Below, piece after piece: positions 5,197 to 49,190 of a DNA stretch of 50,862 bases. How positions within the stretch are numbered: position 1 is the stretch's first letter; the number at the start of each line of letters is the position of its first letter. This DNA is from Phycisphaerae bacterium (lineage in GTDB: Bacteria > Planctomycetota > Phycisphaerae > Phycisphaerales > SM1A02). Under the pieces are notes generated by a model. The model ran no database searches and was not told where the DNA came from. It was given only the letters and a program-made list of their open reading frames with translations. The stretch covers positions 1 to 50,862 of the forward strand of contig PAFA01000028.1 of assembly GCA_002700845.1 (NCBI GenBank), read 5' to 3'. The position numbers and the translations under genes were made by a program.

Positions 5197-5547
5197 ATCG
5201 GACTCGATGAGGCCACTGACAACTTGGGTAACTCGGTCCGCACGCCAGAAATCATCTGGAACTGGTCGCTCCCCAAATTGATCGCGGAAAGCGCGAAGTT
5301 CAAATCGCTTGCGTTGGTTGGCTTCAAGTGGACCAACACTGAGCACAAACCGCTCATTCAGCCAGATTGCGTCGCCTTCATCCAAAGGTCGGTCACTTTG
5401 CACCATCAGGTCCGCACCATCGATCGTGATGGTGCTCTTGCTCGCTGCTTTGGGCAATTCCGGAAATGCGCGAGTGGCGTACGCCGGCACCATTCTTGGA
5501 CTCTGGCACGCAAGAAGCAGCAACGAAGACAACATGGTGATTCGCAC
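5158..5547 (-). CDS. Small exported lipoprotein-like protein of unknown function
   Basis: C-terminal part of the 384-aa ORF. Lipobox-like MLSSLLLLACQSP (ATG 5535), with an in-frame GTG at 5547 preceded by TACGCT. The 3' end overlaps folA by 39 bp. Confidence 0.6.
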   Translation of the reverse strand: MRITMLSSLLLLACQSPRMVPAYATRAFPELPKAASKSTITIDGADLMVQSDRPLDEGDAIWLNERFVLSVGPLEANQRKRFELRAFRDQFGERPVPDDFWRADRVTQVVSGLIESDSILWRAVVTIRD

Positions 5548-5574
5548 GCGTCCGAGCGTAGCATGGTGGGTCAG

Positions 5575-6732
5575 ATGACGAGTGTTGACGAGCCTGATGG
5601 TCCATTGCCAGACCGTGTGTTGTCCCGGCCCATTGCCGATATCGCCCGCGAGACCACGATCGATCCCCGCGTGCCCGCGTTGGTTCCCGGATTTGACGCG
5701 CCGTTTTTTCAGGCTGGTTTGGCCGGATACTCCGATGCGCCAATGCGATTGATGGCCCGCCGCCATGGCTGCCCATTTTGTGTCACCGAAGCTCTCCTGG
5801 ATCGCACTTTGATTTCTGGGGGAAAGGGTCGTACCCGTGAAGATCCAGATCTTCTTGCTGAACAGTGCGGAACTGGTGATTTGGAAGAGAACCGAGCCGC
5901 TGGTCTTGAAGATCATCCGATCGCAGGCCAACTCATGGGTACCCATCCTGAAGAAATGGCGCGTGGTGCAGAGATCTTGCTTCAGTTTGGATACGAAGTG
6001 GTGGATCTCAACTTTGCTTGCCCAGTCAAAAAAGTGAAGCGGCGTAATCGTGGGGGCCATTTTCTGGCCCATCCCGACGAAGCGATCTCCGTGTTTCAGG
6101 CGGTTCGAGAAGTGGTCCCGGACGAGGTTCCAATCACCGTGAAGCTTCGGAGGGCTTGGGATGACACCGATGCCATGACCGACGCTTTCCATCGTGTCTT
6201 TGACGCTATCTATGACTTGGGGGCAGCGTGGGCCACCGTGCACTGCCGGACTGTGGAACAGCGTTACAAAGGTCCGGGCCGCTGGTCTTTTCTTACGGAA
6301 ATTCGTGAGCAATACCCAGATCGACTTTTCTTCGGTTCAGGAGATATTTGGACCGCAGAGGATGTGTTTGCCATGCTCGAAGTGACCGGGGTGACTGGTG
6401 TTTCGGTTGCTCGCGGTTGTATTGGCAATCCTTGGATCTTTCGTCAGTGTCGGCAAATGATGGCGGGGGAGCCCCCTATGGATCCAACGTTGGCGGAGCA
6501 GCGTGACGTCTTACTAGAGCACCTACGCCTGTCAACCGAACTTCACGGTGAGCGGGGCGCCTCCAAAATGATGCGGAAGTTTGGTATTCGTTTTGCCAAG
6601 CACCATCCAGAAGGTCACCGAGTCAAGTCTGATTTTATTGCTTGTGATTCACGGGCGGCTTGGCACCGGGTGCTTGAAGAACACTATCCATCTGATTCAT
6701 CATCGGCCGCCAAATCACCGGCGGCTTCATGA
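5575..6732 (+). CDS. dus: tRNA-dihydrouridine synthase family protein
   Basis: FFQAGLAGYSDAPMRLMARRHGCPFCVTEALLD, DLNFACPVKKV, VHCRTVEQRYKGP. The start is trimmed from the 502-aa ORF (ATG 5563 or 5575). Confidence 0.9.
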   Translation: MTSVDEPDGPLPDRVLSRPIADIARETTIDPRVPALVPGFDAPFFQAGLAGYSDAPMRLMARRHGCPFCVTEALLDRTLISGGKGRTREDPDLLAEQCGTGDLEENRAAGLEDHPIAGQLMGTHPEEMARGAEILLQFGYEVVDLNFACPVKKVKRRNRGGHFLAHPDEAISVFQAVREVVPDEVPITVKLRRAWDDTDAMTDAFHRVFDAIYDLGAAWATVHCRTVEQRYKGPGRWSFLTEIREQYPDRLFFGSGDIWTAEDVFAMLEVTGVTGVSVARGCIGNPWIFRQCRQMMAGEPPMDPTLAEQRDVLLEHLRLSTELHGERGASKMMRKFGIRFAKHHPEGHRVKSDFIACDSRAAWHRVLEEHYPSDSSSAAKSPAAS

Positions 6733-6765
6733 TTCATCGGAAGATTCCCGCGTAGAATTCTTCCC

Positions 6766-7500
6766 ATGACTACCCAAGATTTTGAATACCAGTGTGCAGG
6801 AACAACTGCCCGGGGACTGTTGTCCTTGCCCGAAGTTGGCCAAGGTGAAAATGATCGGTACCCAGGGGTGGTGATCTGCCACGCTTGGAAGGGCCCAGGT
6901 TCATTTGAACGCGAGCGCGCGGAGGAATTGGCGGAAATGGGTTTTGCGGTTTTGGTGGCAGATGTCTATGGCGGCCAACGAGGCAACAACAACGATGAAG
7001 CCACGGCATTGATGACCCCATTGGTTGAAGACCGCGGAGGAGTTTTAAAAGATCGACTGCATGCTTCAGTGGAAGCACTTCAAAATCACGCCCAAGTTGA
7101 TGCTTCACGTTGTGCTGCAATTGGTTATTGCTTTGGGGGCTTGTGTGCGTTGGACTTGGCTCGATCTGGCGCTGATCTTCGCGCGGTTGTGTCATTCCAT
7201 GGTCTGCTTGGCGGACATGAGTTTGGCCCCGATGCAAAACCTCTGGCATCGATTTTGGCCTGCCATGGCTGGGACGACCCGATGGCCACTCCGGAAGCCG
7301 TGGTTGAGTTCGGGGCCGAGATGACGAAGATGGGTGCGGATTGGCAACTGCACGGATATGGAAATGCCATGCATGCATTTACCAACCCAGCCGCAAATGA
7401 TCCATCATTCGGCACTGTTTATGACGCGACTGCCGATGCCAGGTCGTTCCGCTCTATGGTTGATTTCCTATTCGAACATCTGGAAGTAGACGACGAATAA
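6766..7500 (+). CDS. Dienelactone hydrolase family protein
   Basis: 244 aa alpha/beta hydrolase: PGVVICHAWKG, nucleophile region AAIGYCFGGLCALDLARSGADLRAVVSFHG, HGYGNAMHAFTNP. Confidence 0.93.
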   Translation: MTTQDFEYQCAGTTARGLLSLPEVGQGENDRYPGVVICHAWKGPGSFERERAEELAEMGFAVLVADVYGGQRGNNNDEATALMTPLVEDRGGVLKDRLHASVEALQNHAQVDASRCAAIGYCFGGLCALDLARSGADLRAVVSFHGLLGGHEFGPDAKPLASILACHGWDDPMATPEAVVEFGAEMTKMGADWQLHGYGNAMHAFTNPAANDPSFGTVYDATADARSFRSMVDFLFEHLEVDDE

Positions 7501-7510
7501 AGGCACCAAG

Positions 7511-10500
7511 TTATCGATCTTGTGGTGCCGCTCCACTGCCAGAGCGGTCGGGCGACTTTGGCCTTTGGGGGGCCTTAGGTGGGTCCGAACGCAATGCGTC
7601 CACCATGGCTTTGATTCCTGCTTCAAGCTGAAGATCTTGGCCACGCCAAAGTGCGATTGGATCATCAATCACCTCTAGGTCTGGGGACACCCCGTGTCCC
7701 TCAACGGCCCAAGTCCCATCGGCTTCATAAATACCGAAGGTTGGGACCGCAACCGCCGCCCCATCGAGAAGTGCGGGTCCGCCTGTGATGCCGACCAGGC
7801 CGCCCCAGGTTCGTGTGCCGATCAGCGGGCCAAGTCCCGCTCGCCGAAACAGCCAAGGGAACATGTCACCGCCGGAACCAGCCAGACCATTGATCAACAT
7901 GCATTTGGGTCCGAAGTGGCCATCAGAGGGTGATCGCCAGTCATCGCCATGCCGTCGGGCCCACCAGGACACGGGTTGTCGGTTCAGCAACTCGATGAAG
8001 CGTGTCGGAATTTGCCCACCACCATTCCAGCGTTCATCAATGATCAGTGCGTCACGGTGCATCTCGGCAAAGAATTGCGAAACCAGATCGGTTTGCCCTT
8101 CGATCCCTGTGTCTCGCACATAGATGTAGCCCACACGGCCGTCGGTGGCCTCGTGCACCAGTCTCCGATTGGCGTCGATCCACGCATCGTGTCTGAGCTC
8201 AGATTCGCTCTCGATCGGTGTGACCAAGATTTCGAAGGTGTTGCCGTTACGTTCAAAGGTTGTCCCAACGCCCCGACCAACGGTTCCTACCAAGGCCGCC
8301 CAAGGGCTTCGGTATTTGTCGAGTGGTCGACCATCTACCGCCAGAAGTCGGTCCCCAACTTGGACTCTGGTCTCCGCATCCTCAAGGGGATGGTGGTACG
8401 CCCGGAATCCTGGTTCTGGTTGCACCATCTTCTCGACGGTCCAGTACCCATCCTCATAGATCCAGTCGACCCCAAGGAAGCCCATCGCGTCACGGGCTGG
8501 TTCTTGCTCCCCGCCGCCGAACATGCTCCAGCCGCCCGACAGGTAGTACGCGTGGCCGACATTGAGTTCGGCGATCATCTCTCGGATCACACGTGCAACA
8601 TCTTCACGATCACCACAGTCTTCCAGCATGAGCAGAGCCTCATCGAGCGCGGCATCCCAGTCCACCGCATGCATATTCTCCACATAGAACGTGTCTCGGA
8701 ACAGACGCCAAGCATCAATGATCATCTGCCGCCAAGCCTCGCGGGGCTTAAGGTCCAGGAACAACCCCTCAACGAAGACTGGTTCACTTTCCATGCTCAT
8801 GGCATCAAACAGATCCCATCCCTCAGGGGTTGTGCGCAGCAGACCAGACCTGTCCGCCAAGGGATCAAGGAGCAACGCCGGACCGTAAAAAGTGGGTTCG
8901 GCGTCGATGTCGTACGGGTCGATGGTCACGTGCAGTGGTGGTTGTTCGGGATCAACAGCCGTCGACCACACCAAGTGGATGTGATTCCCAGCTTCGACGA
9001 GCATGCTGATATTCCCCGCTGGCAGATTGAGATCCCGAGCGCGACTCAGAGCGCCTTCGAGATCCAACCCCATCTCTTCAGATTTGACCACAGCATCTTC
9101 ATCTTCCATGGGTTCCAGCTCAAATCCATCATCATTGGATTGGGGCGGCCGGCTTCCAAAGAATTGGCCTTCGGCGACCTCGGGAATAATCCAGATCCCT
9201 TCGGCTTCATCGCCAAAGAGATTTGCTTGAAGTTGAAATTTCATCCCGGGTGCCATAACGATGCCCTCGAGAATGCCGTCCTCGTATCGCAACTCCTCGA
9301 CTTGGGCTTCCTGACCCATGGCCATGAATGATGCGTCTAGGTTGCCTTCTTCGTTGGTTACTTCGAGGGCAATTGGCGCTTCGTCGGTGGGAAATCCCAT
9401 CGCGCTCAACCCTTGGAGGGTGAGGTTCCAAACGCCGGCTGCCGGATGTCGGTCTTGAGCATTGTCAGACGGTTCTTGTCCAATGGTGGACCAGCGACCA
9501 CCGATCCCCATGCCAGTGACCTCCCATGCGCCAGAGAGTTGACCTTTGGCCAACTGCCCTTGCACCACAATTTCAATATCACGGAATTCGTATGAAGTTC
9601 GCATCTGACCAGTTGCCGGATCGAACTCCACTTTCGGCAGGGCGACGGTTTGCATTGGGTTGCGCATGGTCCCTCTGAGGATGCCATTCTCATCACGCCA
9701 AAGCTGCAACTCCAGTGGCCCCTCGTCTTCAGACAATCCAGCTCCGAGTAATCCGGTGAGGGTGCCTTCCCAGATCCCGGTTGGATCCAGTTCGCCTGCA
9801 TTGGCTTGCCAAGGCTCGCGATCAACCTCCGGTGCGGTCAAGGGAGGACGGTCTTTCGTGAGCGTGGTCAACATTAGGATTTCTCGATCGGGATAGATCC
9901 AAGTGCCGTCGGAGATCCCCCCGGCATAGACCGGAGCAAAAGCATGACTGGCCACGAACGCCAGTTGCCATCCCTGATCAACGAAGCAAGGGGCGTGTTC
10001 ATCCCGGTCACCAAAAGTCAAAGGTTGGGTCAGGCCGGTATTCAAATCATGCAATGCGATCGCGCGGCGTAGTCGATCCGGTTGGAAGCAAGACCACGCC
10101 AAGTGCTGACCGTTGGGGGAGAAGGTGACCTCCGGGGTGTTGGCTTGAGCATCGGTGGCCAGCAGGGTTGAGGTTCCATCTTCGATGTCAAACAGAATCA
10201 ACTCACCCACGTGGTTGGCTGCGGCAAGATGGGTGCTGTCAGGATGCCACCAAATTCCCGTCCACCATCCAAAAGAACCTTGGCTGAGTCGCCGACTCTC
10301 CGAGCCGTCAGGCCGAATCAATTCCAGTTCGTACTCACCACTCTGATCGCTGGCGTGAGCAATCCAGGCGCCGTTGGGGCTCCAGGCTCCACTTCGCTCT
10401 GCGGCATGGCTGCTGTTGGTGAGATTTCGGGGGACGCCATCGCCCAGCGGAACGGTGAACAAATCGCCGTAGGCTTCCGCCACGACTTCCAGGCCGGTTG

Positions 10501-11407
10501 GCCCCGGCCGAACTTGAACCAGGTACGGCGTGGCATCGAGCCGCCGCGGTGCGAGTGCTGGTCGAGCGCCGGTCAATGCGATCTCAACGGTTTCAATTTC
10601 ATCGTTGTCATTCAGGATTTTGAGCTTTGATCCTTCGCGGAAAATGATCCCCCCCGGACCTGCGGAAGGTTCTCGAAGGTCATACAAATCTGAGGCGTAC
10701 CGGAGCGTTTGTTCTTCATCGTCCAATCGAAACAAGCCAAGTCGGTGGTTGGCCGTGTTGTCCGAGAGAAAGTGCACCGCGCCGTCGTGCCACATGGGAG
10801 CGGTGTCGGTACCACTGAATGTGGTGAGGCGGGATGCCGTTGCGCCATCACTGAGCCACAAGTCGGTGGCCATCCCTCCTCGGTAGCGTTTCCAGCTTCG
10901 GTGATCTCGGGTCCATGGTGTATAAATGAGCTGGCCCAAATTATTGATGTCGGCCCAAGTGCCATAAGGGACCGGGAACTGATGCAATGGCCCGCCCTCA
11001 CGACCGACCGTAAACAGTTGGGAACCCTTGGGGTGACCCTTGATGCCGCGGGCAAAAAACAACACATCGCCTTCAGGGGTCCAGCCGCACAAGGTTTCCC
11101 GAGTGGGATGGTCTGTTAAACGGGTGGGTATGCCTCCGCCGGTTGGCATGGTCCATAGATCGTGCCCGTCGCCGAAATCGGCTTCAAACGCGAGAATCTG
11201 ACCGTCGGGGGAAAATCGAGGACGGTTGGCGCCTCCTACAGCTTGCACCAATGGTGTGGCGGCTCCACCAGTTCGAGGTGCTGACCAAATTCCGCCGGCA
11301 TGGGCGAACGCAATCTTGGATTCGGAGAAATCAGGCCAGGCCAGCAGCCCGGCATGGGCAGGATCTTGACCAAAGGCAGCGGATAACACCAGAAGGAAAA
11401 TGCTCAT
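7511..11407 (-). CDS. Tricorn-type S41 family peptidase (beta-propellers, inserted duplicated domain, PDZ, S41 protease core)
   Basis: WD40/TolB-like propeller repeats ([34 protein letters not shown]); PDZ region [17 protein letters not shown]; catalytic region [30 protein letters not shown]. Start placed at the signal peptide [13 protein letters not shown] (11407) rather than 11863. Confidence 0.9.
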   Translation of the reverse strand: [1298 protein letters not shown]

Positions 11408-11503
11408 GCGATCAATGTAGGCCGTCAGCTCCCCTTTTCGTGACCCCGAACACAAAGTTCTGCCCGTTCCGAGCGGGAGCGGCTCGATGTAGAATTTGGA
11501 TTC

Positions 11504-12580
11504 ATGGCTTCTCGTGGATTGACATATGCCGATGCCGGGGTGGATATCGAAGCTGGTGATGCCGCCGTCGAGCGGTTTGCCAAAGCGGTTCGTGCCACCC
11601 ACGGACCGAGGGTTATTGGTGCTTATGGCGCTTTTGCAGGCATGTTCCGCCTCGATTTCAACGAGCGTTTGTTCCGGCGCAACTATCGGGACCCAGTCTT
11701 GGTCGCATGCACTGATGGGGTTGGTACCAAGGTGCGATTGGCCATTGATCTTGGTGTCCACCACACCGTTGGCATCGACTGCGTGGCGATGAATGTCAAC
11801 GACATGATTTGCCAAGGCGCTGAGCCCTTGTTCTTTCTGGATTATCTGGGACTGCATCGTCAAGATCCCGATCGCACCGCTGAGTTGGTTGCGGGCGTGG
11901 CAGAGGGATGCCGACTGGCCGATTGTGCCTTGCTGGGCGGCGAATGTGCAGAGATGCCAGACATCTATCGCAAAGGTGATTACGACATTGCGGGCTTTGC
12001 CGTTGGCGTGGCAGAATTATCGCGCGTGGTTGATGCCGAACGGGTCCGACCCGGTGATGTCATTCTCGGCCTGAGTTCTAGTGGTATCCATTCGAATGGC
12101 TACACGCTGGTTCGAAAAATTGTCGAGAAGGCAAAGATCGATCTTGATGTCGAGCACCCGAGAGCAGGCGGAGAAGGCCGAACATTTGGAGAGCAGTTGC
12201 TCGAACCCACTCGGATTTATGTCCGATCGATCATTTCAATGCTTCGTTCCTACAAGGTCAAACGACCAGTGAGTGGGATGGCCCATATTACGGGCGGGGG
12301 GCTCCCGGGCAATCTGGTGCGTGCGCTGCCGAAGGGATGTCGCGCGGTGGTCTCTAAACCTGCGTGCGAAGTGCCTCCGCTTTTCCGGGTCCTGCAAAGA
12401 GCGGGACGCATTTCTGAAGCGGAAATGTGGAAGGTCTTCAACATGGGAATTGGGTACTGCGTCATTGTTCGTCCCAACTTTGCCGACAGTGTGATGGCCA
12501 AACTTGAAGCTTCGGGTGAGTCCGTACGCAAGATCGGTATGGTTCGCAAAGGCCGATCTGGCGTTGAGCTGACCGCATAA
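11504..12580 (+). CDS. purM: Phosphoribosylformylglycinamidine cyclo-ligase
   Basis: LTYADAGVDIEAGDAAVERF, DGVGTKVRLAIDLGVHHTVGIDCVAMNVNDMICQGAEPLFFLDYL, LLGGECAEMPDIY, ITGGGLPGNLVRALP. Confidence 0.97.
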   Translation: MASRGLTYADAGVDIEAGDAAVERFAKAVRATHGPRVIGAYGAFAGMFRLDFNERLFRRNYRDPVLVACTDGVGTKVRLAIDLGVHHTVGIDCVAMNVNDMICQGAEPLFFLDYLGLHRQDPDRTAELVAGVAEGCRLADCALLGGECAEMPDIYRKGDYDIAGFAVGVAELSRVVDAERVRPGDVILGLSSSGIHSNGYTLVRKIVEKAKIDLDVEHPRAGGEGRTFGEQLLEPTRIYVRSIISMLRSYKVKRPVSGMAHITGGGLPGNLVRALPKGCRAVVSKPACEVPPLFRVLQRAGRISEAEMWKVFNMGIGYCVIVRPNFADSVMAKLEASGESVRKIGMVRKGRSGVELTA

Positions 12581-12602
12581 AGCTCGAGCAATCCCTCGGG
12601 GC

Positions 12603-13037
12603 TTAAGAATCAAAATCTCGCTCGCCGCGTTGCCTCTTGGTCGCGCCACGGTACTTTTTGTCCGAGAGCCTTTTTCGTACCGAAGCCCGAGTGGGACTGG
12701 TTGGTTTTCGTTCGGCGGGGGGTGATGCGGCAGCATGCACCAAGTCGGCAAATCGGCGTATTGCCGCTCGACGGTTGGTCAATGGGGATCGTGAGGCGCC
12801 GGCACGAAGCATGGCAACGCCATCTTTTTCCCGACGTCCTAACAACGTCACAAGCCGCGCTCTGGCTTCAGGATGAAGTCCTTTGACATGCTCAAGCACA
12901 ACCCGCATGCGAACCGCAGTCGCGACCTTGTTGACATGCTGTCCTCCCGGACCAGAAGCGCGAATGGCTTCAAAGCTGATCGCATGCTTCGGGACCCACC
13001 GGCCATGGCCAAGTTCAATTCGATCGGGCGACTTCAT
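12603..13037 (-). CDS. arfB: Peptidyl-tRNA hydrolase ArfB/YaeJ-like (class I RF domain)
   Basis: 144 aa; GGQ motif ASGPGGQHVNKVATAVRMRVVLEH, basic C-terminus SDKKYRGATKRQRGERDF. Confidence 0.88.
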   Translation of the reverse strand: MKSPDRIELGHGRWVPKHAISFEAIRASGPGGQHVNKVATAVRMRVVLEHVKGLHPEARARLVTLLGRREKDGVAMLRAGASRSPLTNRRAAIRRFADLVHAAASPPAERKPTSPTRASVRKRLSDKKYRGATKRQRGERDFDS

Positions 13038-13921
13038 GGGGAACCTGTGCGTTCCGCATGCTGCACGCCGGAGATATTCATATCAATAGCGCCTGCTCGC
13101 AAGTGCATGCACTCGGGGTCATGCACCCCGGCCGCATTGGCTTCCGTGGCGAGGAATTCACGGTATTCCTGTTGCGGATTATTGGCTTGGTGGATGCATT
13201 GGTATTGCCTTTTGAGCGAGTTACTCAGCCGATTCAGGTGACCTTGAGGATCGTGGCATGCGCCAAAGTGTGCGACCAGCAAGACATCGGCATTGAGATC
13301 AGCCATGGCGTCGATGCTGGAGAGCCAACTCGTCAGATCAAGATCTGGTGGAGGCATTTGGGCGGGTGCGAATTCTGGGGCCTCGGGAACGAAACCTCCC
13401 GCAGCATCTCCAGTGGCCAGGAGTTTGGTCCCATCGCAGTCAAATGAGAAAACAACGTGGTGTTTGGCGTGCCCAATTGTTTCGTGCACTCCGAAAGAGG
13501 TATTTCCAATGGTGAGTTGTCCGCCCAGTTCAACGTTGTGAAGCATCGACGGCGGCACCAATTTCATATCACCAAAAAGTTGAGGAAGCCGATCACCATA
13601 AATCTTGGTGGCCGAGGCCATCAGTCTTGAAGGATCTGCCAAGTGTCGATACCCAACTGGGTGAACATGGATTGGAACGCCCTCGGCGGCAAGATCTCCC
13701 ACGGCGGCAGCGTGGTCCAAATGAATATGAGTGAGAAGAACCCCCGCCAAATCCTCCACTTGCCACCCTAGAGCGGCCAAGCCGATTCGTAGGGTCGGCA
13801 GGGTTGAGGCGGGGCCGGGGTCAATCAGCACCGGGCCGGCCTCCGTTGGCACCAGCCAAGATGAGATCGCGCCCGGCCGATCAAGCCAGAGCAGGTCAAT
13901 GGGGTGGACGCCCAGCGTCAT
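13034..13921 (-). CDS. MBL-fold metallo-hydrolase
   Basis: 295 aa; LLTHIHLDHAAAVGDLAAEGVPIHVHPVG. Confidence 0.9.
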   Translation of the reverse strand: MTLGVHPIDLLWLDRPGAISSWLVPTEAGPVLIDPGPASTLPTLRIGLAALGWQVEDLAGVLLTHIHLDHAAAVGDLAAEGVPIHVHPVGYRHLADPSRLMASATKIYGDRLPQLFGDMKLVPPSMLHNVELGGQLTIGNTSFGVHETIGHAKHHVVFSFDCDGTKLLATGDAAGGFVPEAPEFAPAQMPPPDLDLTSWLSSIDAMADLNADVLLVAHFGACHDPQGHLNRLSNSLKRQYQCIHQANNPQQEYREFLATEANAAGVHDPECMHLRAGAIDMNISGVQHAERTGSP

Positions 13922-13930
13922 AAAAGTCCG

Positions 13931-15949: not shown

Positions 15950-16010
15950 TCCAGCAACCGAGGAACCACCTGTGGAGGAGCCGGGCTCGTTGGCTTGGAT
16001 TTGGGTGGGG

Positions 16011-17630: not shown

Positions 17631-17691
17631 AAAACAACCTTGCCACTCTAGGAGGCACTTGGTTCAAGGAGTCCAAGGTTCAATATTGTTT

Positions 17692-18843: not shown

Positions 18844-18849
18844 GTTGGC

Positions 18850-18855
18850 AGTGTA
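18850..18855 (-). promoter_or_regulatory. Putative -10 element (TACACT) of a leaderless promoter for the citrate synthase gene
   Basis: Minus strand reads TACACT-GCCAAC-ATG; only 6 nt separate the hexamer from the start codon. Confidence 0.45.
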
Positions 18856-18860
18856 AGGCC

Positions 18861-18890
18861 AAAAAAAAGCCCCCCGGTATTCCGGGGGGC
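18861..18890 (-). terminator. Rho-independent terminator of the dockerin-protein gene 18918..20345
   Basis: Minus strand GCCCCCCGG-AATA-CCGGGGGGC followed by TTTTTTTT (9-bp stem, 4-nt loop). Confidence 0.92.
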
Positions 18891-24366: not shown

Positions 24367-24372
24367 AGTCTA
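24367..24372 (-). promoter_or_regulatory. Putative -10 (TAGACT) of a leaderless promoter for the antiporter gene
   Basis: Minus strand TAGACT-CTCGTC-GTG (start 24360). Confidence 0.4.
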
Positions 24373-24383: not shown

Positions 24384-24389
24384 TATGAT
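24384..24389 (+). promoter_or_regulatory. Putative -10 (TATGAT) of a leaderless promoter for the asparaginase-type gene
   Basis: TATGAT, 7 nt, ATG at 24397. Confidence 0.5.
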
Positions 24390-26846: not shown

Positions 26847-27290
26847 TCATGATTTGGGGTCGCCTTCTGGCGACCCCTTTTTTGTTTCTTGCATGAGTCG
26901 CAACAGAACACCTTCGAGGATCGTTCGCTCCGCAGCATCCAGACCATTGGGTGCGTACAGCACCCGAAAGGCCGGCCCACTGTTTGTCTCCCGAACACCA
27001 ATCCAAGCTGGTGGTCCCATTGGCACCGTGCCAACGGAGAGGGTTCGGGGGGCATTTGATGTCTCATCAACATGAATTTCCAAAGCAGTTGGCGGTTGAT
27101 CTTGGGTCGCGCCGAGCAATCCCAGCCGGTCGCTTAGAACCCGCACTGTTTTATTGGCTTCAAAGATGGAAAAAGTGCGTGGGAGGAGGATTGGTTGGTT
27201 TTGGTGGGGCCTAAAACCTTCGACCGGTTGGGTCGATTCTGGGGTGCCAGTACACCCCACCAGGACCAAAAGCAATGCAATGCGTCTCAC
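26847..27290 (-). CDS. Small lipoprotein of unknown function
   Basis: Lipobox RIALLLVLVGCTGTPES; start placed at GTG 27290 (TAGGTT-GACCAGC-GTG). The ORF track opens at 27329. Confidence 0.6.
   Translation of the reverse strand: MRRIALLLVLVGCTGTPESTQPVEGFRPHQNQPILLPRTFSIFEANKTVRVLSDRLGLLGATQDQPPTALEIHVDETSNAPRTLSVGTVPMGPPAWIGVRETNSGPAFRVLYAPNGLDAAERTILEGVLLRLMQETKKGSPEGDPKS
26856..26883 (+). terminator. Rho-independent terminator after the redoxin gene
   Basis: ggggtcgcc-ttct-ggcgacccc followed by tttttt. Confidence 0.9.
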
Positions 27291-27350
27291 GCTGGTCAAC
27301 CTACAATTGACGAGAATTCTCCGCTTCAATTTTCAAGAGGAATCCCCAAC

Positions 27351-36558: not shown

Positions 36559-36669
36559 AGAGCAGGTCCTTTTCCGGTGGGAAACGACACAGGTTAGCCG
36601 ACGCCCCGGCGTTCCGCACGCAGGAAATTGCCAGGGAATCCGTACAATTGAACCTTCTGGAGTCCAATC

Positions 36670-39456: not shown

Positions 39457-39486
39457 TACGCTCGTCAAAGCCGCAAGGAGTCCTTC

Positions 39487-41072: not shown

Positions 41073-41767
41073 GCCTGCCGTACAACTGCGTCGTTGATCA
41101 GTTCCTTTGGCGGTCCCTCGGCCAAGTTTCGACCTTCGTGCAAGATGTACGCACGGTCGCAAATGCGTAGTGTTTGTTGCACGTTGTGGTCGGTCACCAA
41201 AATAGCGATGCCACTGCTTGCCAACCGGCGGACCTCAGCTTGAAGTTCTTCAACGGTGTGCGGGTCAACTGCAGCAAAGGGCTCGTCCAGCAGCAGCAAA
41301 CGAGGTTTACACGCCATAGCTCGAGCAATTTCAAGTCTTCGGCGTTCGCCACCTGAGCATGTTTCCGCCAAGTCTTCCGCTTTGTGGCGGAGCCCAAACC
41401 GTTCGATCAATTCCCGAGCTTTGTTTTTCCGACTGTTGGGCGTTGGCTCATGCAGCTCCAGTACTGCGAGCAAATTTTCCAAAACCGTGAGGCCTCGAAA
41501 CACACTTGGTTCTTGTGCGAGGTAGCCCATGCCAAGCCGCGCTCGACGATGCATAGGCTCCTTGGTGATATCTCTGCCGTCAAATTGCACTGAACCCTCG
41601 TCGGGTTCGAGCATGCCAATTGCCATTCTGAAACTTGTGGTTTTGCCAGCGCCATTTCTTCCAAGCAGACCCACAACCTCGCCAGCTTCAATGAAAAAGC
41701 TGGCCCCATCGACCACACGGCGAGCGCCGAACTTTTTGACAAGTTGTTTGGCATCGAGCAGGGGCAC
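41033..41767 (-). CDS. lptB: ABC transporter ATP-binding protein, LptB-like
   Basis: Walker A GLLGRNGAGKTTSF; RARLGMGYLAQEPSVFRGLTVLENLLAVLEL; ETCSGGERRRLEIARAMACKPRLLLLDEPFAAVDP. Confidence 0.92.
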   Translation of the reverse strand: MPLLDAKQLVKKFGARRVVDGASFFIEAGEVVGLLGRNGAGKTTSFRMAIGMLEPDEGSVQFDGRDITKEPMHRRARLGMGYLAQEPSVFRGLTVLENLLAVLELHEPTPNSRKNKARELIERFGLRHKAEDLAETCSGGERRRLEIARAMACKPRLLLLDEPFAAVDPHTVEELQAEVRRLASSGIAILVTDHNVQQTLRICDRAYILHEGRNLAEGPPKELINDAVVRQAYLASTFRGDEFD

Positions 41768-41768
41768 G

Positions 41769-42707
41769 TTATTCCTGTGACGCTTCGTCGCTTGCGGTAT
41801 CGGTTTCGTCCGAAGGTGAATTGTTGCTTACAGCTTTCGCGTGGTCAGTCCATTCGCTGGGACGCAATCGATGGGCAATCTCGCCAATGATCTTGTCGGC
41901 ATCTTGGTGAATGTAATCGTCGATCTTCGCGATCCGTCCATCGGTGTGTATGACTTTCGCCACGCTCTTGCTCATCCAGCGGCTCATGTCGATATCAGTA
42001 ATTTCATTGGCGAGCCATGTGCCTTCGGGATGATGAAACGCACCTTCTTCGTCGACGCTGTATTTTCTTCTTAGACCACCGATGAGTTGGAATGCGGTGA
42101 ACAGCGAGTACGGGCCGCACAGAATGAACAGCCATTGAACCATTCGGTTCCATTTGTTGGGTACGGGGAATTTTTGATAGGCGGTTACGCCCTCAGAGAC
42201 ACCATCAACAAAGTTTGCAAATGCGTCACTGTCTCGTGTCCATTCCCCTTGGTCAACCAAAGCCAGTCCTACGATCATTCGATCCACTTGTAGGGTCCAG
42301 CTCAATCGCTCTCTTGCGACGGTGCCAAGATTCGACCTGAAATTGAAGGTGGCGGAGACCAGGCCTTCCTGTTGGGCCTGTTCCATTTGCTCTTTGAACT
42401 GCGATTGCATTTCGCCGCGAGCTTGTCTGAGCTCTTCAGCTTCAGATTTAGTCATCGAATCGGTCAGTTGTTGTGCGGCGACTTTGATGCCGTCGGCCGC
42501 GGTTTGTAATGCATTCGCTTCGCTATTGGCGTGAGCTTCAAGTCCTGCTTTGACGTTGCTGAACGCGACTTTCTTTTGATAGCCGAGTTCGTCTAGGGGG
42601 ATCTTGACGGAGTAGTCATACCAGCCCCAAACCCCAAAGACCGCGCACAGCACGGTCATAAGACCCATTTGGATCACCCATCGAGTTCTTGGTCGAGTCT
42701 GAATCAT
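41769..42707 (-). CDS. Two-TM membrane protein with central coiled coil, unknown function
   Basis: N-terminal TM MGLMTVLCAVFGVWGWYDY, helical/charged middle KSEAEELRQARGEMQSQFKEQMEQAQQEG, second TM MVQWLFILCGPYSLFTAFQLIGGL, acidic tail. Confidence 0.6.
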   Translation of the reverse strand: MIQTRPRTRWVIQMGLMTVLCAVFGVWGWYDYSVKIPLDELGYQKKVAFSNVKAGLEAHANSEANALQTAADGIKVAAQQLTDSMTKSEAEELRQARGEMQSQFKEQMEQAQQEGLVSATFNFRSNLGTVARERLSWTLQVDRMIVGLALVDQGEWTRDSDAFANFVDGVSEGVTAYQKFPVPNKWNRMVQWLFILCGPYSLFTAFQLIGGLRRKYSVDEEGAFHHPEGTWLANEITDIDMSRWMSKSVAKVIHTDGRIAKIDDYIHQDADKIIGEIAHRLRPSEWTDHAKAVSNNSPSDETDTASDEASQE

Positions 42708-42737
42708 GTGAGGTCTCCGTCACGGGTTGATTGGATG

Positions 42738-43361
42738 TTAATCCGACTTCATCGCCGCCAACTCACGAGCATCATCGATCAAGTTGGTGCACAGACCCGG
42801 AAGTCCATCAAGTCGGTCAAGCATGATTTCAAGCCGACGTTCTGGGGAAGCGGTGGGGTCGTCAGCCCGCTGGGCGGCCTCTACAAGTGCCGTAAATGCG
42901 GTTTTCCACCAATCCAAGCTTGGGTTGTCAATATTGTCTTCAACTGGAACGCGGGTCCTGATGACCACGCCTCGTCCCAAAACAGCAATTGGCCGTTCTC
43001 CGAGTTTCGTCAAGGGTTCTCGAGCGAAGGCCAATACAGGAACACCATGTTCTGAACCTGCTGTCAGCAACCTTCGGGCATCTGCCCCGACTTGGGGTGC
43101 GGTGACAAGGTAAACGCCTGGATCGGGGACAAATTCGTCGTTGTTGGGTACTTCTGTGCACTGAATGCCGTGTTCTTCGGCGTGAGCCAACGCGGCATTC
43201 GCGCGGGCAGTCCATGCATCACGGAGTTTGATCAGGGCTTCGTTGAGGAGTGCTGAATCACGTGGTCCTCGAGCAGCTTCCAATGCACGGCGCGCGTCTT
43301 GTTCAGACTCGCACCAATCGGCATCGGTATGGGAGGATGAGTTTGGGGCCGAAAAGTTCAT
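42738..43361 (-). CDS. Uncharacterised protein
   Basis: 207 aa intact ORF in an operon-like run with its neighbours; no family recognised. Confidence 0.6.
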   Translation of the reverse strand: MNFSAPNSSSHTDADWCESEQDARRALEAARGPRDSALLNEALIKLRDAWTARANAALAHAEEHGIQCTEVPNNDEFVPDPGVYLVTAPQVGADARRLLTAGSEHGVPVLAFAREPLTKLGERPIAVLGRGVVIRTRVPVEDNIDNPSLDWWKTAFTALVEAAQRADDPTASPERRLEIMLDRLDGLPGLCTNLIDDARELAAMKSD

Positions 43362-43373
43362 GCGTTTTATCGA

Positions 43374-43925
43374 TCACGTGTCCAAGAGGTCTGAAACCAA
43401 ATCGGCTCGGACCGGGTCTGCAAAAGTCGCTCGGAATCGATCTGGAGGCGACACTTCTAAAACCATTCGGCTTGATGGAGTGAGCACTTGAAGGGATTGT
43501 TGCTCTCCTTCACCATCTCGGGCCAAAACCTCGACGAGACGGCGCAGAAGGGGGAGATCCGCAGGATTGCACAGCACGGGATCTCTCCCATTTCGGTGGA
43601 CGGTTGCGACGTGGTCAAATTCTTGCCATGCTTCGACTTCAGCCATTCCAAATGCAACGGCATCAAGAATGTCCGACCACCGCCCAGTGGGCACCAGAAG
43701 CATCTGATCCAGCGATAGTCTTCCCAGAATTTCCTCCAGGCGTGCGGCCAATTGCTCTGGTGCGAGCTTCAGTTCATGGCGTGTCAGATCTGGTTCATCA
43801 GCCAAGTCCAGTCGACGAACTTGTTCGCTGACGTCCTTTACTCCGATCCGGAGATCTTGCATGACTTCTTCGACTTCTGTCGACTCAACGAATTCCACGG
43901 AATCCTCCTGTACGGTGACAATCAT
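43374..43925 (-). CDS. Uncharacterised protein
   Basis: 183 aa intact ORF, first of the 43925->41033 run; no family recognised. Confidence 0.6.
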   Translation of the reverse strand: MIVTVQEDSVEFVESTEVEEVMQDLRIGVKDVSEQVRRLDLADEPDLTRHELKLAPEQLAARLEEILGRLSLDQMLLVPTGRWSDILDAVAFGMAEVEAWQEFDHVATVHRNGRDPVLCNPADLPLLRRLVEVLARDGEGEQQSLQVLTPSSRMVLEVSPPDRFRATFADPVRADLVSDLLDT

Positions 43926-43957
43926 ATCGGTTCCGCGAAGGGGGTAGCATTGGAGAG

Positions 43958-44419
43958 ATGTTGCAGCACATCCTGTTCATTTGTACCGGGAACACCTGTC
44001 GGAGCCCCTTGGCGGAGGGGTTGGCCATGGATTGGCTCGATCAACATGGGCTTCTGGGGAAGTGGAGCGTTGGAAGTGCCGGTGTATTTGCCGTGGATGG
44101 CTCGGAGCCTTCTCCAGAAGTTGCCGCATTGCTGGCCTCAAGGGGCATTTCTCAGGTTGGACGTTCGAGCTCATTGACGCTGGGACTGTTGCGTGAGGCT
44201 TCAATTGTCCTTGCCATGACTTCGGCTCACGCCGAGGCCGCGCAACGCCTGTTGGGTGACGCACCCGGCCCACCTATTCAGACACTCGACCCTTCGGGTG
44301 ATATTCCTGACCCCATTGGCCACGGATTTGGTGTTTATGCCGATCTGGCGGATCAATTGGATGCTGTTCTCGATCAAGTTCTTAAGAAAGTAACCCATGC
44401 GAATAACGATCTCGGGTGA
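43958..44419 (+). CDS. Low-molecular-weight protein-tyrosine phosphatase family
   Basis: P-loop ILFICTGNTCRSPLAEGLA; C-terminal IPDPIGHGFGVYADLADQLD. Confidence 0.93.
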   Translation: MLQHILFICTGNTCRSPLAEGLAMDWLDQHGLLGKWSVGSAGVFAVDGSEPSPEVAALLASRGISQVGRSSSLTLGLLREASIVLAMTSAHAEAAQRLLGDAPGPPIQTLDPSGDIPDPIGHGFGVYADLADQLDAVLDQVLKKVTHANNDLG

Positions 44420-44870
44420 TCATCGTGGGCATCAAGCCGTGGATGATGTGATCAAATATCTTCAAAGCCAAAGTCATGAGGTCACGGTTCAAGGCGCGTG
44501 TGATGGTGTGGCGTGTGATTACCCCGTCCGATCGATGGCGGTGGCCAAAGACGTGGCTGAGGGTCAGTCGGAACTTGGGATTTTGATCTGTGGTAGCGGA
44601 ATTGGTGTTTCGATTGCGGCCAACAAGGTTGATGGCGTTCGGGCGGCGTTGGTTATGGATGCCGCGCATGCAAAAGGCTCGCGTGAGCACAACCATGCAA
44701 ATGTCTTGTGCTTCTCGGCCGACCGAACATCAGCTGAAATCATGTGCGAAGCCGTAGATGCATGGGTTGAGGCATCCCCACAGCCAGACCGTCATGCTCG
44801 CCGAGTCGCTCAAATGACAGAGATTGAACGCGGATCAAACCCCATAGATCAGTCATCGAGTTCGGCGTAG
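44397..44870 (+). CDS. rpiB: Ribose-5-phosphate isomerase B
   Basis: MRITISGDHRGHQAVDDVIKYLQ, LGILICGSGIGVSIAANKVDGVRAAL, SREHNHANVLCFS. Confidence 0.95.
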   Translation: MRITISGDHRGHQAVDDVIKYLQSQSHEVTVQGACDGVACDYPVRSMAVAKDVAEGQSELGILICGSGIGVSIAANKVDGVRAALVMDAAHAKGSREHNHANVLCFSADRTSAEIMCEAVDAWVEASPQPDRHARRVAQMTEIERGSNPIDQSSSSA

Positions 44871-46318
44871 CCCGCGGCCAGATCAGCCAGCAAGCGAACT
44901 CCAAACCCGGTCGGACCTTCGCAGAATTGGGCATTCGCTTCGGTGCGAGCCATTCCAGCAATATCCAAATGTGCCCAGGGAATATCCTCCGGAACAAAGT
45001 GAGAAAGGAAGGCTGCGCCTTGAATGGGGTGCCCATCACGCTTTGGCCCGCTGTTCCAGAGATCAGCATGCCGGGCACGCATAAAGTCTCGATGGCAGTC
45101 CCAAACCGGCATTGCCCAGAGCTTTTCTTCGGTTTCATCGGCTGAAATTTCGAGACGATGGCGAAGCGACTCGTCGCCACAGAACATGCCGGCGCACCAT
45201 GAGCCCAGCGCGACAACAATTCCGCCCGTGAGGGTGGCCATGTCAACGATCGCAGTTGGTTCTAATTTGTTGCAGGCGTAGGTCAATGCATCGGCCATGA
45301 TCAGTCGACCTTCAGCATCTGTATTGGTGACTTCGACGGTCGCGCCATTCATCATTGTGATGATGTCATCTGGGCGATATGCACTGGAATCAACCATGTT
45401 TTCTGCACATGGCAGCAAGGCCGTGACTCGGACGGGGAGATCCCTTTGGGCGATCAACAACATCGCTCCCAAGACACCGTAGCCGCCGCAGCCGTCATAT
45501 TTCATACCCAGCATGCTGTTGTTGACCTTGAGGGAATAGCCGCCCGAGTCATAGGTCATCGTCTTGCCCACAAAGACCAAGTGTTCGTCTTCGGGAGCGT
45601 CCTCATGATCGTGCTCCAAAACCACCATGCATGACGGCGTTTCGGACCCTTGCCCCACACCCACCAGACCGCCCATGCCCAAATTTTCAGCTTGGCGTGC
45701 GGTCACCACTTTGACTTTGAGGCCAACCGCCTTGGCCAGACGCTTTGCTTCGCTCGCAAACCAGGCGGGGTTGCATTCGTTGGGGGGACTGGCGGCCAGT
45801 CTGCGTGCTTCGTTGACGCATTCGGCGGCCATCAGCCCGTCATGGAGGCCCTCTCGAAATTCTGCGTCATCGGGATCCAAGCGTAAACCACGTCGGGATG
45901 CTTCTCGGCGGGTCGCCGTACCGTCATGGGCATCGGGTCGCCATGCGGCAAGACCAAGGCCTTCTCCGAAGGATTGACCAGCAGCCTCAGCTTCACCGGC
46001 CCGAAGGACGTGGGCGGTATGGATCCGAATGGCTGTGAGTTGGAGCCCAAAGGCTTTCGCCACCAAAGCAGCTCCGGCGCTGCGGAAGCGTTCGACAGCG
46101 CTCTGATCATCGTTGCCCAATCCAACCAAGACCATACCTTCGGTCCAGACGGTTATTTCGCCCGATTTACCTTGAAAAGCACCTGTTGCCCGGGCTTCTC
46201 TCACCGCGGCGGCCAGGCCACCGGTCAGGCGATCGCCGGAAGCGTCTTCAGTGAGAAGGATGACCTCGCGAGCCTGGCTCGCACGGCTGGTCCGCTGAAT
46301 TTTAAATTGTTCGTACAC
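44849..46318 (-). CDS. pepA: Leucyl aminopeptidase family (M17)
   Basis: NTDAEGRLIMADALTYA; LVFVGKTMTYDSGGYSLKVNNSMLGMKYDGCGG; GTG 46318 preceded by CGGAGG; the ORF opens at 46366. Confidence 0.94.
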   Translation of the reverse strand: MYEQFKIQRTSRASQAREVILLTEDASGDRLTGGLAAAVREARATGAFQGKSGEITVWTEGMVLVGLGNDDQSAVERFRSAGAALVAKAFGLQLTAIRIHTAHVLRAGEAEAAGQSFGEGLGLAAWRPDAHDGTATRREASRRGLRLDPDDAEFREGLHDGLMAAECVNEARRLAASPPNECNPAWFASEAKRLAKAVGLKVKVVTARQAENLGMGGLVGVGQGSETPSCMVVLEHDHEDAPEDEHLVFVGKTMTYDSGGYSLKVNNSMLGMKYDGCGGYGVLGAMLLIAQRDLPVRVTALLPCAENMVDSSAYRPDDIITMMNGATVEVTNTDAEGRLIMADALTYACNKLEPTAIVDMATLTGGIVVALGSWCAGMFCGDESLRHRLEISADETEEKLWAMPVWDCHRDFMRARHADLWNSGPKRDGHPIQGAAFLSHFVPEDIPWAHLDIAGMARTEANAQFCEGPTGFGVRLLADLAAGYAELDD

Positions 46319-46376
46319 ATGGGCCTCCGAGGGTCTACATCGGGCAAGGTGGCAGATTGACACCACCCCGGGGGGC

Positions 46377-46382
46377 TATGCT
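46377..46382 (+). promoter_or_regulatory. Putative -10 (TATGCT), 5 nt before GTG of thiE; TTGACA at 46357-46362
   Basis: TTGACA-14 bp-TATGCT-5 nt-GTG; the spacer is shorter than the usual 16-18 bp. Confidence 0.35.
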
Positions 46383-46387
46383 CCATT

Positions 46388-47425
46388 GTGCGCGCTGAAC
46401 GACTCTTGGATGCCAATGTGAACCGAGCCCGGGAGGGGTTGCGCACTCTCGAGGAAATCGCCCGCTTGTTGCTGGAAGACTCCGAACTCGCGGCTGCACT
46501 CAGGACACGTCGTCGTCGTCTGGGGGCATTGACAGAAGAAATTCTTCCGGATCTTCTTCCGGCGCGAAGTGCAGGCACCGATCCGGGATTTGCTCCAGAG
46601 ATCGCTGCTGGTCCGCGAAAGGACCTTGCCAGCGTTGCCGCCGCTGCTGCCGGTCGCGTGGGTGAATCATTGCGGGTGTTGGAAGAGATTGGATCGACCG
46701 TCAATCCCTCATTCGCCGCAGGGATCCAAAGCATCCGGCACGGCTGGTATGACTTGGATCGAGACCTCAGACTGCGATTGGGCACCCGAAAACCCCTCGC
46801 CCAGCCTCGTTTGTGTGTTTTGCTGACGCGTGATCTTTGCCCGGGTGGTGATTGGATCAGGGTCGTTGATGCGTTGGCAGAATCGCGGGTAGACATGGTG
46901 CAGATCAGAGAGAAAGAACTGGCAGATGGTGTTTTGCTGAATCACGCTGAAGCAGTCCGAGACCGATTGCATTCCACCACTCGGCTGGTCATCAACGACC
47001 GTATTTCCGTTGCTGCCACCTTGGGTCTTGATGTCCACTTGGGCCGGGAGGATCTTCCAATCGCGGCGGCCCGACGGTTGCTTGGTCGAGATGCCCAGAT
47101 TGGACGAAGTACTTCAGGCCTTCCAGAAGCTCATTCGGCGATCGCAGCGGGGGCCGATCTGGTCGGCGTCGGACCAGTATTTGTGAGTGCCACCAAGGAT
47201 AAAAAGCCGGTGGGTCCTGGGGCTGCGGGCAAAGTCGCTGCTGCAGGCATCCCACATTTGGCGATTGGTGGGATTGAGCTCAGCAATCTTGAATCATTGT
47301 GTGAGCATGGTGTGGCAGGGGTCGCGGTGTGCCGTGGTGTCCTCGGGGCTGAGGATGTTGCTGCCACCGTCTCCAAGATCCAGACGCGTATGGACACGGC
47401 CGCTGAGGATGTTTCATGCCCTTAA
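46388..47425 (+). CDS. thiE: Thiamine phosphate synthase with N-terminal ThiD2-like domain
   Basis: N-terminal RLLDANVNRAREGLRTLEEIARLLLED (ThiD2-like); C-terminal ThiE DMVQIREKELADG, VINDRISVAATLGLDVHLGREDLPIAAARRLLG, VGVGPVFVSATK. Confidence 0.93.
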   Translation: MRAERLLDANVNRAREGLRTLEEIARLLLEDSELAAALRTRRRRLGALTEEILPDLLPARSAGTDPGFAPEIAAGPRKDLASVAAAAAGRVGESLRVLEEIGSTVNPSFAAGIQSIRHGWYDLDRDLRLRLGTRKPLAQPRLCVLLTRDLCPGGDWIRVVDALAESRVDMVQIREKELADGVLLNHAEAVRDRLHSTTRLVINDRISVAATLGLDVHLGREDLPIAAARRLLGRDAQIGRSTSGLPEAHSAIAAGADLVGVGPVFVSATKDKKPVGPGAAGKVAAAGIPHLAIGGIELSNLESLCEHGVAGVAVCRGVLGAEDVAATVSKIQTRMDTAAEDVSCP

Positions 47426-48264
47426 GTGATGCTTCAGTGCTTCTTTTGGGAACTGGGACCAGTTCCGGCGTGCCCGTCCTTGGTTGTGATTGTTCGGTAT
47501 GCACCAGCAGTGATCCTCGAGATCAGCGGCTGCGAACTTCAGCTGCACTGAGATTTCAGGATCCCGAGGGTCACTTTCGAGAGATGCTGATCGACTGTGG
47601 CCCCGACCTCCGACAACAAGCGTTGAGCGCTGGTCTTAGCCGATGCGACGGCATTTTTGTGACCCATCACCACGTCGATCACATCTACGGGCTTGATGAA
47701 GTTCGCCGGTTCAACGCACTGATGCAGGAGCCGATTGACCTTTTTGCGGAAGAGCGCACGCTTGATGCCATTCATCGTGTCTACCGACACATCTTCGATG
47801 CGGCCAAAAACCTCAATCCATCGTTTGTGGCCCATGTCCGGACCCATCGGGTGACCACTGATGGATCAGTCTCGAGGATGGGAATTCGGGCGACGCCCAT
47901 TCGGTTGCTCCACGGAAAAATGCCCATTTTGGGATGGCGGTTTGATGCGGTAGATCCGTCGGGTGCGACGTTGACCGATCTTCCGGGCCCATTTCCCTTC
48001 GCGTGGTGCACCGATTGTTCGGCGATCCCGCCTGAATCTTGGCCTCGCCTGGAGGGCCTTCGGCACCTCTTTTTGGACATGTTGCGGCCTCGGAGTCATC
48101 CCACTCATTTTTGTCTGGATGAATCTCTGGCCGTCGCCGAGCAAGTGGCGGCGAAGCAGACCTGGTTCATCCATATGAGCCATGACGTCTCCCATGCCTC
48201 TCTGGAGGCCAATTTGCCATCTGGGATTGCTCCGGCTTACGACGGACTGGTGGTTTCCGACTGA
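47416..48264 (+). CDS. MBL-fold metallo-hydrolase, PhnP/RNase Z-like
   Basis: LLLGTGTSSGVPVLGCDCSVCTSSDPRDQRLRTSAALRF, FVTHHHVDHIYGLDEVRRFN. Confidence 0.9.
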   Translation: MPLSDASVLLLGTGTSSGVPVLGCDCSVCTSSDPRDQRLRTSAALRFQDPEGHFREMLIDCGPDLRQQALSAGLSRCDGIFVTHHHVDHIYGLDEVRRFNALMQEPIDLFAEERTLDAIHRVYRHIFDAAKNLNPSFVAHVRTHRVTTDGSVSRMGIRATPIRLLHGKMPILGWRFDAVDPSGATLTDLPGPFPFAWCTDCSAIPPESWPRLEGLRHLFLDMLRPRSHPTHFCLDESLAVAEQVAAKQTWFIHMSHDVSHASLEANLPSGIAPAYDGLVVSD

Positions 48265-48311
48265 AGCCGGGGTCTGCCTCGCTCGCCGGTCGGATCTATA
48301 CTCTCCATCCC

Positions 48312-49190
48312 ATGGCCCGTACTCGTGAAATCAAGCGTCGGATGACGGCAGTCGGCACGATTGCCCGCATCACCAAGACCATGCAGATGATCGCCACGGC
48401 GAAATTCACTGCAGCACTGCAAAGAGCTTCGGCCACCAAGCCGTACACCGAGACTTTGTCTGACATGGTGGCTGAACTGGCTTCCACGGTATCTCCGGAA
48501 GAATCTGGATCACCATTGCTCAACGCACCCACTCCGGCCCGAAAGCGAGAGCTGTTGTTGGTCGTGAGTTCAGATCGTGGCCTGTGCGGTGCCTACAACG
48601 CCAATGTGCTTCGGGTCGCCGCTCGCCACTTGCGTGAGCAATCGGCCGTGGGTGTCGACACTGTGGTTGAGACCGTTGGTAAGAAGGCCGTTGGATTCTT
48701 CCAATTCCAAGGTTTTGATATTGCCAACCGCTATGAGCTGGGTGATAAGCCTGCGTACGAAGCGGTAGAAGCCATTGCTGCGAGCTACATGGATCGGTTT
48801 GCCGCGGGTGAATTTGATGCCGTCCGGGTGGCATTTATGAGGTTTGTCTCAAACGCTCGGCAAGTTCCTGAAATCATGCAAGTGCTCCCGCTTGAAGCCG
48901 AAGCAGCTGCTGAAGATGCTCCCCGCGCAAATGCCGGCTGTGAATTTTCACCCGAGCCAGCGGTGCTGCTGGCAGACTTGATCCCTTTGGCCGTGAAAAG
49001 CAGACTGTTCCAATGCGTGAACGATGGTGCGGTCTCCGAGCAGATCATGCGGATGATTGCGATGAAAGCCGCGACCGAAAATGCCCGAGATCTGCGCAAG
49101 ACCCTTTCTCGCGACTTCAATCGCGCCCGTCAAGGTCAAATCACAACCGAGCTCACCGAGATCATCTCGGGTGTGGCCGCCCTCGAGTAG
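48312..49190 (+). CDS. atpG: ATP synthase F1 subunit gamma
   Basis: REIKRRMTAVGTIARITKTMQMIATAKF, VVSSDRGLCGAYNANVLR, MIAMKAATENARDLRKTLSRDFNRARQGQITTELTEIISGVAAL. Confidence 0.96.
   Translation: MARTREIKRRMTAVGTIARITKTMQMIATAKFTAALQRASATKPYTETLSDMVAELASTVSPEESGSPLLNAPTPARKRELLLVVSSDRGLCGAYNANVLRVAARHLREQSAVGVDTVVETVGKKAVGFFQFQGFDIANRYELGDKPAYEAVEAIAASYMDRFAAGEFDAVRVAFMRFVSNARQVPEIMQVLPLEAEAAAEDAPRANAGCEFSPEPAVLLADLIPLAVKSRLFQCVNDGAVSEQIMRMIAMKAATENARDLRKTLSRDFNRARQGQITTELTEIISGVAALE

Follow-up and report, generated by a model that had tools for sequence, protein, structure and literature searches.

Leaderless initiation is a known mode of bacterial gene expression, established in Actinobacteria and Deinococcota, as a first-pass annotation of the DNA studied here had noted for several phyla. 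In a survey of 953 bacterial genomes, 207 held TA-led leaderless genes (Zheng et al. 2011, PMC3160421); those of Actinobacteria and Deinococcus-Thermus carry a Pribnow box of the TANNNT type some 10 bp ahead of the start codon, and most are without a Shine-Dalgarno (SD) sequence, alongside genes that have one. Experiments in Deinococcus have shown that −10 motifs adjoining open reading frames (ORFs) drive leaderless mRNA without a −35 element (PMC12340547), and in Mycobacterium tuberculosis sequencing of transcription start sites (TSSs) revealed leaderless mRNAs from TANNNT −10s beside the start codon (PMC3898074). Here we analyze a stretch of 50,862 nt (the window; contig PAFA01000028.1) from an uncultured marine planctomycete of the class Phycisphaerae, in which the first-pass annotation had listed eleven TANNNT hexamers a few bases before start codons. 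All eleven are present with the spacers it gave, and our analysis indicates that such hexamers are very probably the −10s of promoters read by the primary sigma factor (RpoD, sigma-70 type), with transcription starting at the start codon or within about four bases before it.

The planctomycete signal thus resembles the published systems in its hexamer, in a solitary −10 set a few bases ahead of the ORF, and in the coexistence with SD genes. It differs from the TA-led genes of PMC3160421 in its phylum and in a third base that is C or G in 78% of hexamers, in a genome of 55% GC, where that paper gives TAtaaT for medium-GC groups; Planctomycetes are unnamed in its text, and its table contains an unresolved “Other Bacteria” group. 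In contrast to the Deinococcus-Thermus and M. tuberculosis cases (PMC12340547; PMC3898074), which rest on experiment and on TSS sequencing, respectively, ours is predicted from sequence alone. It concerns about 21% of operon-leading genes, compared to about 30% of ORFs in Deinococcus-Thermus; short-leader SD genes here seem to use the same hexamer, and, unlike in M. tuberculosis, no standalone CarD is found in the sampled Phycisphaerae. A 2017 survey with one planctomycete described an upstream bias, either leaderless or S1-related (PMC5397173), and PMC9581028 reports a GeneMarkS-2 prediction of leaderless use for 21.6% of bacterial species, a set that may include Planctomycetota. Within the literature searched, we found no earlier description for this bacterial group and no TSS map of a planctomycete; the terms “Phycisphaer” and “leaderless” together returned only PMC10783764, on anti-SD sequences.

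The window is one contig (C43) of a metagenome-assembled genome (MAG) of 1.77 Mb in 104 contigs, 78% complete. A search with purM identified Phycisphaeraceae MED-G178 as the nearest named relative (94% protein identity) with other Phycisphaerales next, which places the genome in the class Phycisphaerae among marine relatives; contig C14 of MED-G178 carries the orthologues of the window genes. Genome-wide counts cover 1.16 Mb of the MAG, taken in stretches. Genes were called by a script on coding potential and start-codon type only, ignoring any upstream signal, and the main set comprises 419 operon-leading genes. Distances (d) are measured from the first T (T1) of TANNNT to the start codon, d = 12 being equal to a 6-nt spacer, and the background was taken from 100 dinucleotide shuffles. 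A second, codon-based caller was added because longest-ORF calling is unsuited to GC-rich genomes. Fractions from free expectation-maximization motif searches of upstream regions were discarded, since these mixed SD with −10 sequences and gave high values even on null stretches.

The first-pass annotation had proposed genome-wide enrichment against shuffled sequence as a check, and this comparison reveals a sharp positional peak. TANNNT with T1 at 12–16 nt precedes 103 of the 419 operon-leading genes, whereas the shuffles average 12.7 and never exceed 22. From d = 10 to d = 17 the counts are 3, 3, 37, 23, 19, 17, 7 and 3 genes, and every other position out to 45 nt holds 0–6 sites. The lower edge of the peak, from 3 sites at 11 nt to 37 at 12 nt, is abrupt, as would be expected if an RNA cannot begin past its own start codon. 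The spacer range of 5–9 nt noted at first is revised to 6–10 nt with a mode of 6, a 5-nt spacer being retained for the site at 46388 only. In the standard sigma-70 geometry, the modal spacer of 6 nt makes the start codon's first base the expected +1.

The peak is absent from 13,652 in-frame internal ATG and GTG codons used as a control, and is reproduced with the second caller. It is also seen at genes with an upstream gap of 25–60 nt (19/79 vs 2.6 shuffled) and at tightly spaced genes with a gap below 25 nt (28/231 vs 5.0), with the motif enriched in operon-leading genes (25%) over the tightly spaced ones (12%). Within the window alone, 4 of the 20 automatically called leading genes have the motif, against 0.5 expected. 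Net of chance, TANNNT at leaderless distance marks about one in five operon-leading genes (about 21%), a number that supports, and gives a size to, the widespread leaderless transcription predicted at first.

Analysis of the hexamer itself reveals a strict core. T1, A2 and T6 are near-obligatory, and one-mismatch forms are without excess: 27 vs 29 expected for TANNN[not T], 75 vs 82 for [not T]ANNNT and 49 vs 87 for T[not A]NNNT. The third base is almost never A, and the flanks of the hexamer are richer in G and C. As the first-pass annotation had also observed, there is no consistent −35: with the sequences aligned on the −10, base composition further upstream is flat, and 4-of-6 matches to TTGACA at spacers of 15–19 number 4–8 per spacer, the same as elsewhere (n = 158). 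In fact, the genome encodes a complete primary sigma factor, RpoD (L104:4745–6520; 592 residues), with regions 1.1, 1.2, 2, 3 and 4. Because RpoD keeps the −35-binding region 4, the lack of a −35 belongs to the DNA and not to the sigma factor. We considered standalone CarD, a protein known as a helper of mycobacterial promoters, as a helper of −35-less promoters and rejected it: in 60 of 61 genomes of the class the only matches above the cut-off lie in reading frames of Mfd size, a single one in each genome, and the search of the window's own 78%-complete genome gave no match.

The sequence around the start codon fits initiation at this position. A pyrimidine occupies −1 in 82 of 103 motif genes (80%), compared to 176 of 316 other leading genes (56%; Fisher p = 1.3e-5), and in 39 of 55 compared to 115 of 203 in MED-G178 (p = 0.06). 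The pyrimidine–purine step at the start codon is also seen for d = 13 and 14; a pyrimidine before +1 is what initiators usually favor. No TTG start is found among the 103 motif genes, compared to 13 among the 316 others (p = 0.04), a difference not seen again in MED-G178. SD 4-mers precede 13% of motif genes, 34% of other leading genes and 39% of tightly spaced genes, over a local background of 8–9%; the remark that most listed sites lack a usable SD therefore extends genome-wide, as motif genes lie near the SD background. The genome's own 16S rRNA is missing from the MAG, and the anti-SD is known from relatives: in genomes from the same order, including two from its own family (G177, G180), the 16S gene ends in a normal anti-SD (GGATCACCTCCTTTCT).

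Comparison with MED-G178 shows that hexamer and spacing are conserved. All eleven listed sites keep T, A and T, with identical spacing in ten and a difference of one base at 48312:

5555–5560, minus strand: −10 TACGCT, 7-nt spacer to GTG 5547; identical in MED-G178; its TA is shared with the plus-strand −10 at 5559
6753–6758, plus strand: −10 TAGAAT, 7-nt spacer to ATG 6766; TAGGAT at equal distance in MED-G178
11414–11419, minus strand: −10 TACATT, 6-nt spacer to ATG 11407; conserved in MED-G178
11490–11495, plus strand: −10 TAGAAT, 8-nt spacer to purM ATG 11504; TAGGAT in MED-G178
18850–18855, minus strand: −10 TACACT, 6-nt spacer to ATG 18843 (citrate synthase); conserved in MED-G178
24367–24372, minus strand: −10 TAGACT, 6-nt spacer to GTG 24360 (cation/proton antiporter family); conserved in MED-G178
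24384–24389, plus strand: −10 TATGAT, 7-nt spacer to ATG 24397; conserved in MED-G178
27298–27303, minus strand: −10 TAGGTT, 7-nt spacer to GTG 27290; conserved in MED-G178
43945–43950, plus strand: −10 TAGCAT, 7-nt spacer to ATG 43958; conserved in MED-G178
46377–46382, plus strand: −10 TATGCT, 5-nt spacer to GTG 46388, the sole site below 6 nt; same spacing in MED-G178
48297–48302, plus strand: −10 TATACT, 9-nt spacer to ATG 48312 (7 nt if read from an overlapping TACTCT); spacing shorter by one base in MED-G178

Among 136 orthologue pairs, the motif is present in both genomes in 26, in neither in 94 and in one only in 16, so that its status agrees in 120, and the spacing is identical in 23 of the 26 shared cases. 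Per-position identity is 0.96 at T1, 1.00 at A2 and 0.92 at T6, compared to 0.72 in the flank and 0.38–0.62 in mid-spacer: the length of the spacer is preserved, as judged from these alignments, and its letters are not. At 27290 the −10 is kept though the lipoprotein-like product (VRRIALLLVLVGC) is just 56% identical in MED-G178. Further away, purM of other Phycisphaerales (about 60% protein identity) has in many cases TANNNT 6–8 nt before the likely start, as TACACT, TACAAT, TATCCT and similar hexamers (loci such as L010, L014–L017, L022–L025 and L027). At the purM loci of other Planctomycetota (L030, L032–L034, L036, L044) the signal is found in 0 of 17.

RNA polymerase would then begin on the A or G of the start codon or up to about four bases ahead of it, and the resulting mRNAs would be leaderless or nearly so and translated without SD pairing, their 5′-terminal AUG or GUG presumably being bound by 70S ribosomes or by 30S subunits loaded with initiator tRNA. 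The start site itself, the use of RpoD and this ribosome route are what we infer from the signals above. Several points weigh against such a reading: the sites at 13–16 nt could give leaders of 1–4 nt instead of none, the gene starts rest on our own caller, the 5-nt spacer at 46388 would move the usual TSS into the GTG by one base, and the SD genes with a more distant hexamer, described below, are modest in number, part of the matches being background. The spread over 12–16 nt, together with the habit of bacterial polymerases of picking start sites over several bases, may mean that the −10s are real and that most transcripts have very short leaders of about 1–10 nt, translation being only near-leaderless. 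We consider this unlikely, as the mode and sharp edge fall at 12 nt, exactly a 6-nt spacer, the pyrimidine–purine step stays at the start codon for d = 13 and 14, and distances of 17–26 nt, equivalent to leaders of 5–14 nt, are nearly empty.

The remaining explanations deny the promoter or the start. AT-rich stretches at non-SD genes have been tied to RPS1 or to leaderless mRNA, which could not be separated there (PMC5397173), and a translation context such as an S1-type enhancer might account for an AT-rich signal at non-SD starts; it is very improbable for a signal in which three letters are fixed and one-mismatch forms are not enriched, with flanks richer in G and C, and with a distance that is fixed while the spacer letters are poorly conserved. 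Automatic start calling may also err, with the true starts lying downstream behind an SD and the hexamers being ordinary −10s of leadered genes. We give this little credence, since the orthologous proteins of MED-G178 align from residue 1 and share the start, two listed genes open with a lipoprotein signal peptide right after the called GTG, and the peak persists with the codon-based caller and is missing from internal ATG and GTG codons. TANNNT is short and common, yet an eight-fold excess over shuffles, confined to leaderless distance and conserved in a second genome, already refutes chance matches to a three-letter consensus. Leaderless or nearly leaderless transcription from RpoD-type −10s is thus strongly favored.

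The remaining genes, notably those inside operons, would use SD sequences, some of them transcribed from the same TANNNT placed 22–36 nt upstream, with a short SD leader. SD-led leading genes have TANNNT at 17–26 nt in 4 cases in the window's own genome (none at 17–21) and in 4 in MED-G178, compared to 21 and 13 cases, respectively, at 27–36 nt. One promoter type therefore seems to feed both leader classes, and two classes of leader, none or a short SD leader, are the simplest reading of these modest numbers. Three window genes fit the two initiation modes proposed at first, each with a conserved hexamer and an SD in between:

4608–4613, minus strand: short-leader SD promoter TAGGAT, 29 nt before ATG 4584 (gene 2629–4584), SD AAGGAG at 4592–4597; hexamer and SD kept in MED-G178
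36643–36648, plus strand: short-leader SD promoter TACAAT, 27 nt before alaS ATG 36670, SD CTGGAG at 36657–36662; conserved in MED-G178
39457–39462, plus strand: short-leader SD promoter TACGCT, 30 nt before ATG 39487, SD AAGGAG at 39475–39480; conserved in MED-G178

Some divergent gene pairs place both −10s on one TA step, in the arrangement A-NNN-TA-NNN-T. In the window this is seen for the pair 5547 (minus)/5575 (plus) in the region 5545–5577, where the same TA base pairs are T−12/A−11 on both strands and both hexamers are conserved in MED-G178. The dusB start is better placed at 5575 than at 5563, a position that falls inside the hexamer. With called starts, 4 of the 6 divergent pairs of this genome with start gaps of 23–28 nt share the TA. 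The features concerned are:

5158–5547, minus strand: small lipoprotein-like gene, protein start VRITMLSSLLLLACQS, lipobox right behind the GTG
5559–5564, plus strand: −10 TAGCAT, 10-nt spacer to ATG 5575 (revised dusB start); conserved in MED-G178
L102 21151/21175, divergent: shared-TA pair, called starts
L116 18270/18294, divergent: shared-TA pair, called starts
L167 10338/10364, divergent: shared-TA pair, called starts
L120 6786/6815, divergent: shared-TA pair, called starts; conserved in MED-G178

With flexible starts, 7 of 31 double-motif divergent pairs have the shared-TA offset. This bias needs care, because one motif already gives TA on the other strand and one more A suffices. In counts of the shared-TA pattern across the phylum, the window's own genome gives 8 vs 3; AT-rich genomes have an excess also, and the strongest leaderless genomes, G116 and G130, have none. 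A phylum-wide feature was therefore rejected, and we report the shared TA as local. The arrangement resembles the bidirectional promoters of E. coli and Salmonella, in which one pseudo-symmetric −10 is read on both strands (PMC12825309, PMC10268837) and the commonest distance between start sites is 18 bp, with 10 and 23 bp frequent as well (PMC12825309). In contrast to these, the form seen here would predict about 23 bp between start sites, with both products leaderless coding mRNAs. It is conceivable, and we propose it only tentatively, that a −35-less strict TANNNT is the common core across Phycisphaerales, with distance alone setting leaderless or short-leader SD expression, and that a single TA can fire two divergent leaderless genes, the whole intergenic region being one symmetric −10.

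Other observations concern the surroundings of the listed sites. The divergent −10s of 24360 (minus) and 24397 (plus) lie inside one 36-nt intergenic region. A terminator-like hairpin on the minus strand (18861–18888; CCCCCGG-AATA-CCGGGGG, then T8) stands directly upstream of the citrate synthase −10 and ends a few bases short of it; it is kept in MED-G178 with stem letters changed. The lipoprotein-like genes 5158–5547 and 26847–27290, both on the minus strand with GTG starts, were missed by the automatic caller, and their −10s are conserved in MED-G178.

The distribution of the signal was surveyed by counting TASNNT-N6-ATG, S being C or G, against spacers nine longer and three shorter, which keep codon phase; this control replaced a reversed-pattern control that was not phase-matched. 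The third base of the pattern must be C or G, and AT-rich genomes have a high background, so that a null there is not informative. The window's own genome gives 141 vs 68 and 69. By these counts the signal is present in most Phycisphaerales, for example in MED-G178 (132 vs 61), L010 (191 vs 45), L020 (191 vs 33), L025 (201 vs 56) and L029 (150 vs 38). In Planctomycetota as a whole, 27 of 79 genomes significantly exceed the larger of the two controls after correction, and many show no excess; the Phycisphaerae CSMAG genomes L030, L032 and L034 have ratios of 0.8–1.1. Thirteen genomes of Betaproteobacteria, Firmicutes, Actinobacteria and others give 0.85–1.22, none significant after correction. 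A gene-based check with the codon-based caller finds the motif in 24 of 70 genes at other Phycisphaerales loci (background 1.7), in 10 of 60 pooled from three GC-rich Planctomycetota (background 1.6) and in 12 of 169 in other phyla (background 8.6).

We note that the spacing signal is much stronger than in the window's own genome in five genomes of other Planctomycetota families (G130, G116, G084, G121 and G114), up to eight-fold in G130 (82 vs 10 and 8); three sampled among them are about 70% GC. G127, of the same phylum, has the opposite imbalance (284 for TASNNT-N15-ATG, compared to 175 for N6 and 156 for N3), perhaps reflecting a repeat or a different upstream signal.

These results place an order of Planctomycetota that is known mainly through metagenomics among the lineages rich in leaderless genes, and they supply promoter-level details: a strict core, no −35, two distance classes and a shared TA. 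Gene finders that expect an SD will misplace starts in this order. Within the phylum the signal is present in some genomes and absent from others, which should make it possible to trace how leaderless initiation was gained and lost. The apparent absence of a −35 combined with a near-invariant T−12, A−11 and T−7 offers comparative work a clean example of −10-only promoters. The two distance classes amount to a directly testable rule for leader choice.

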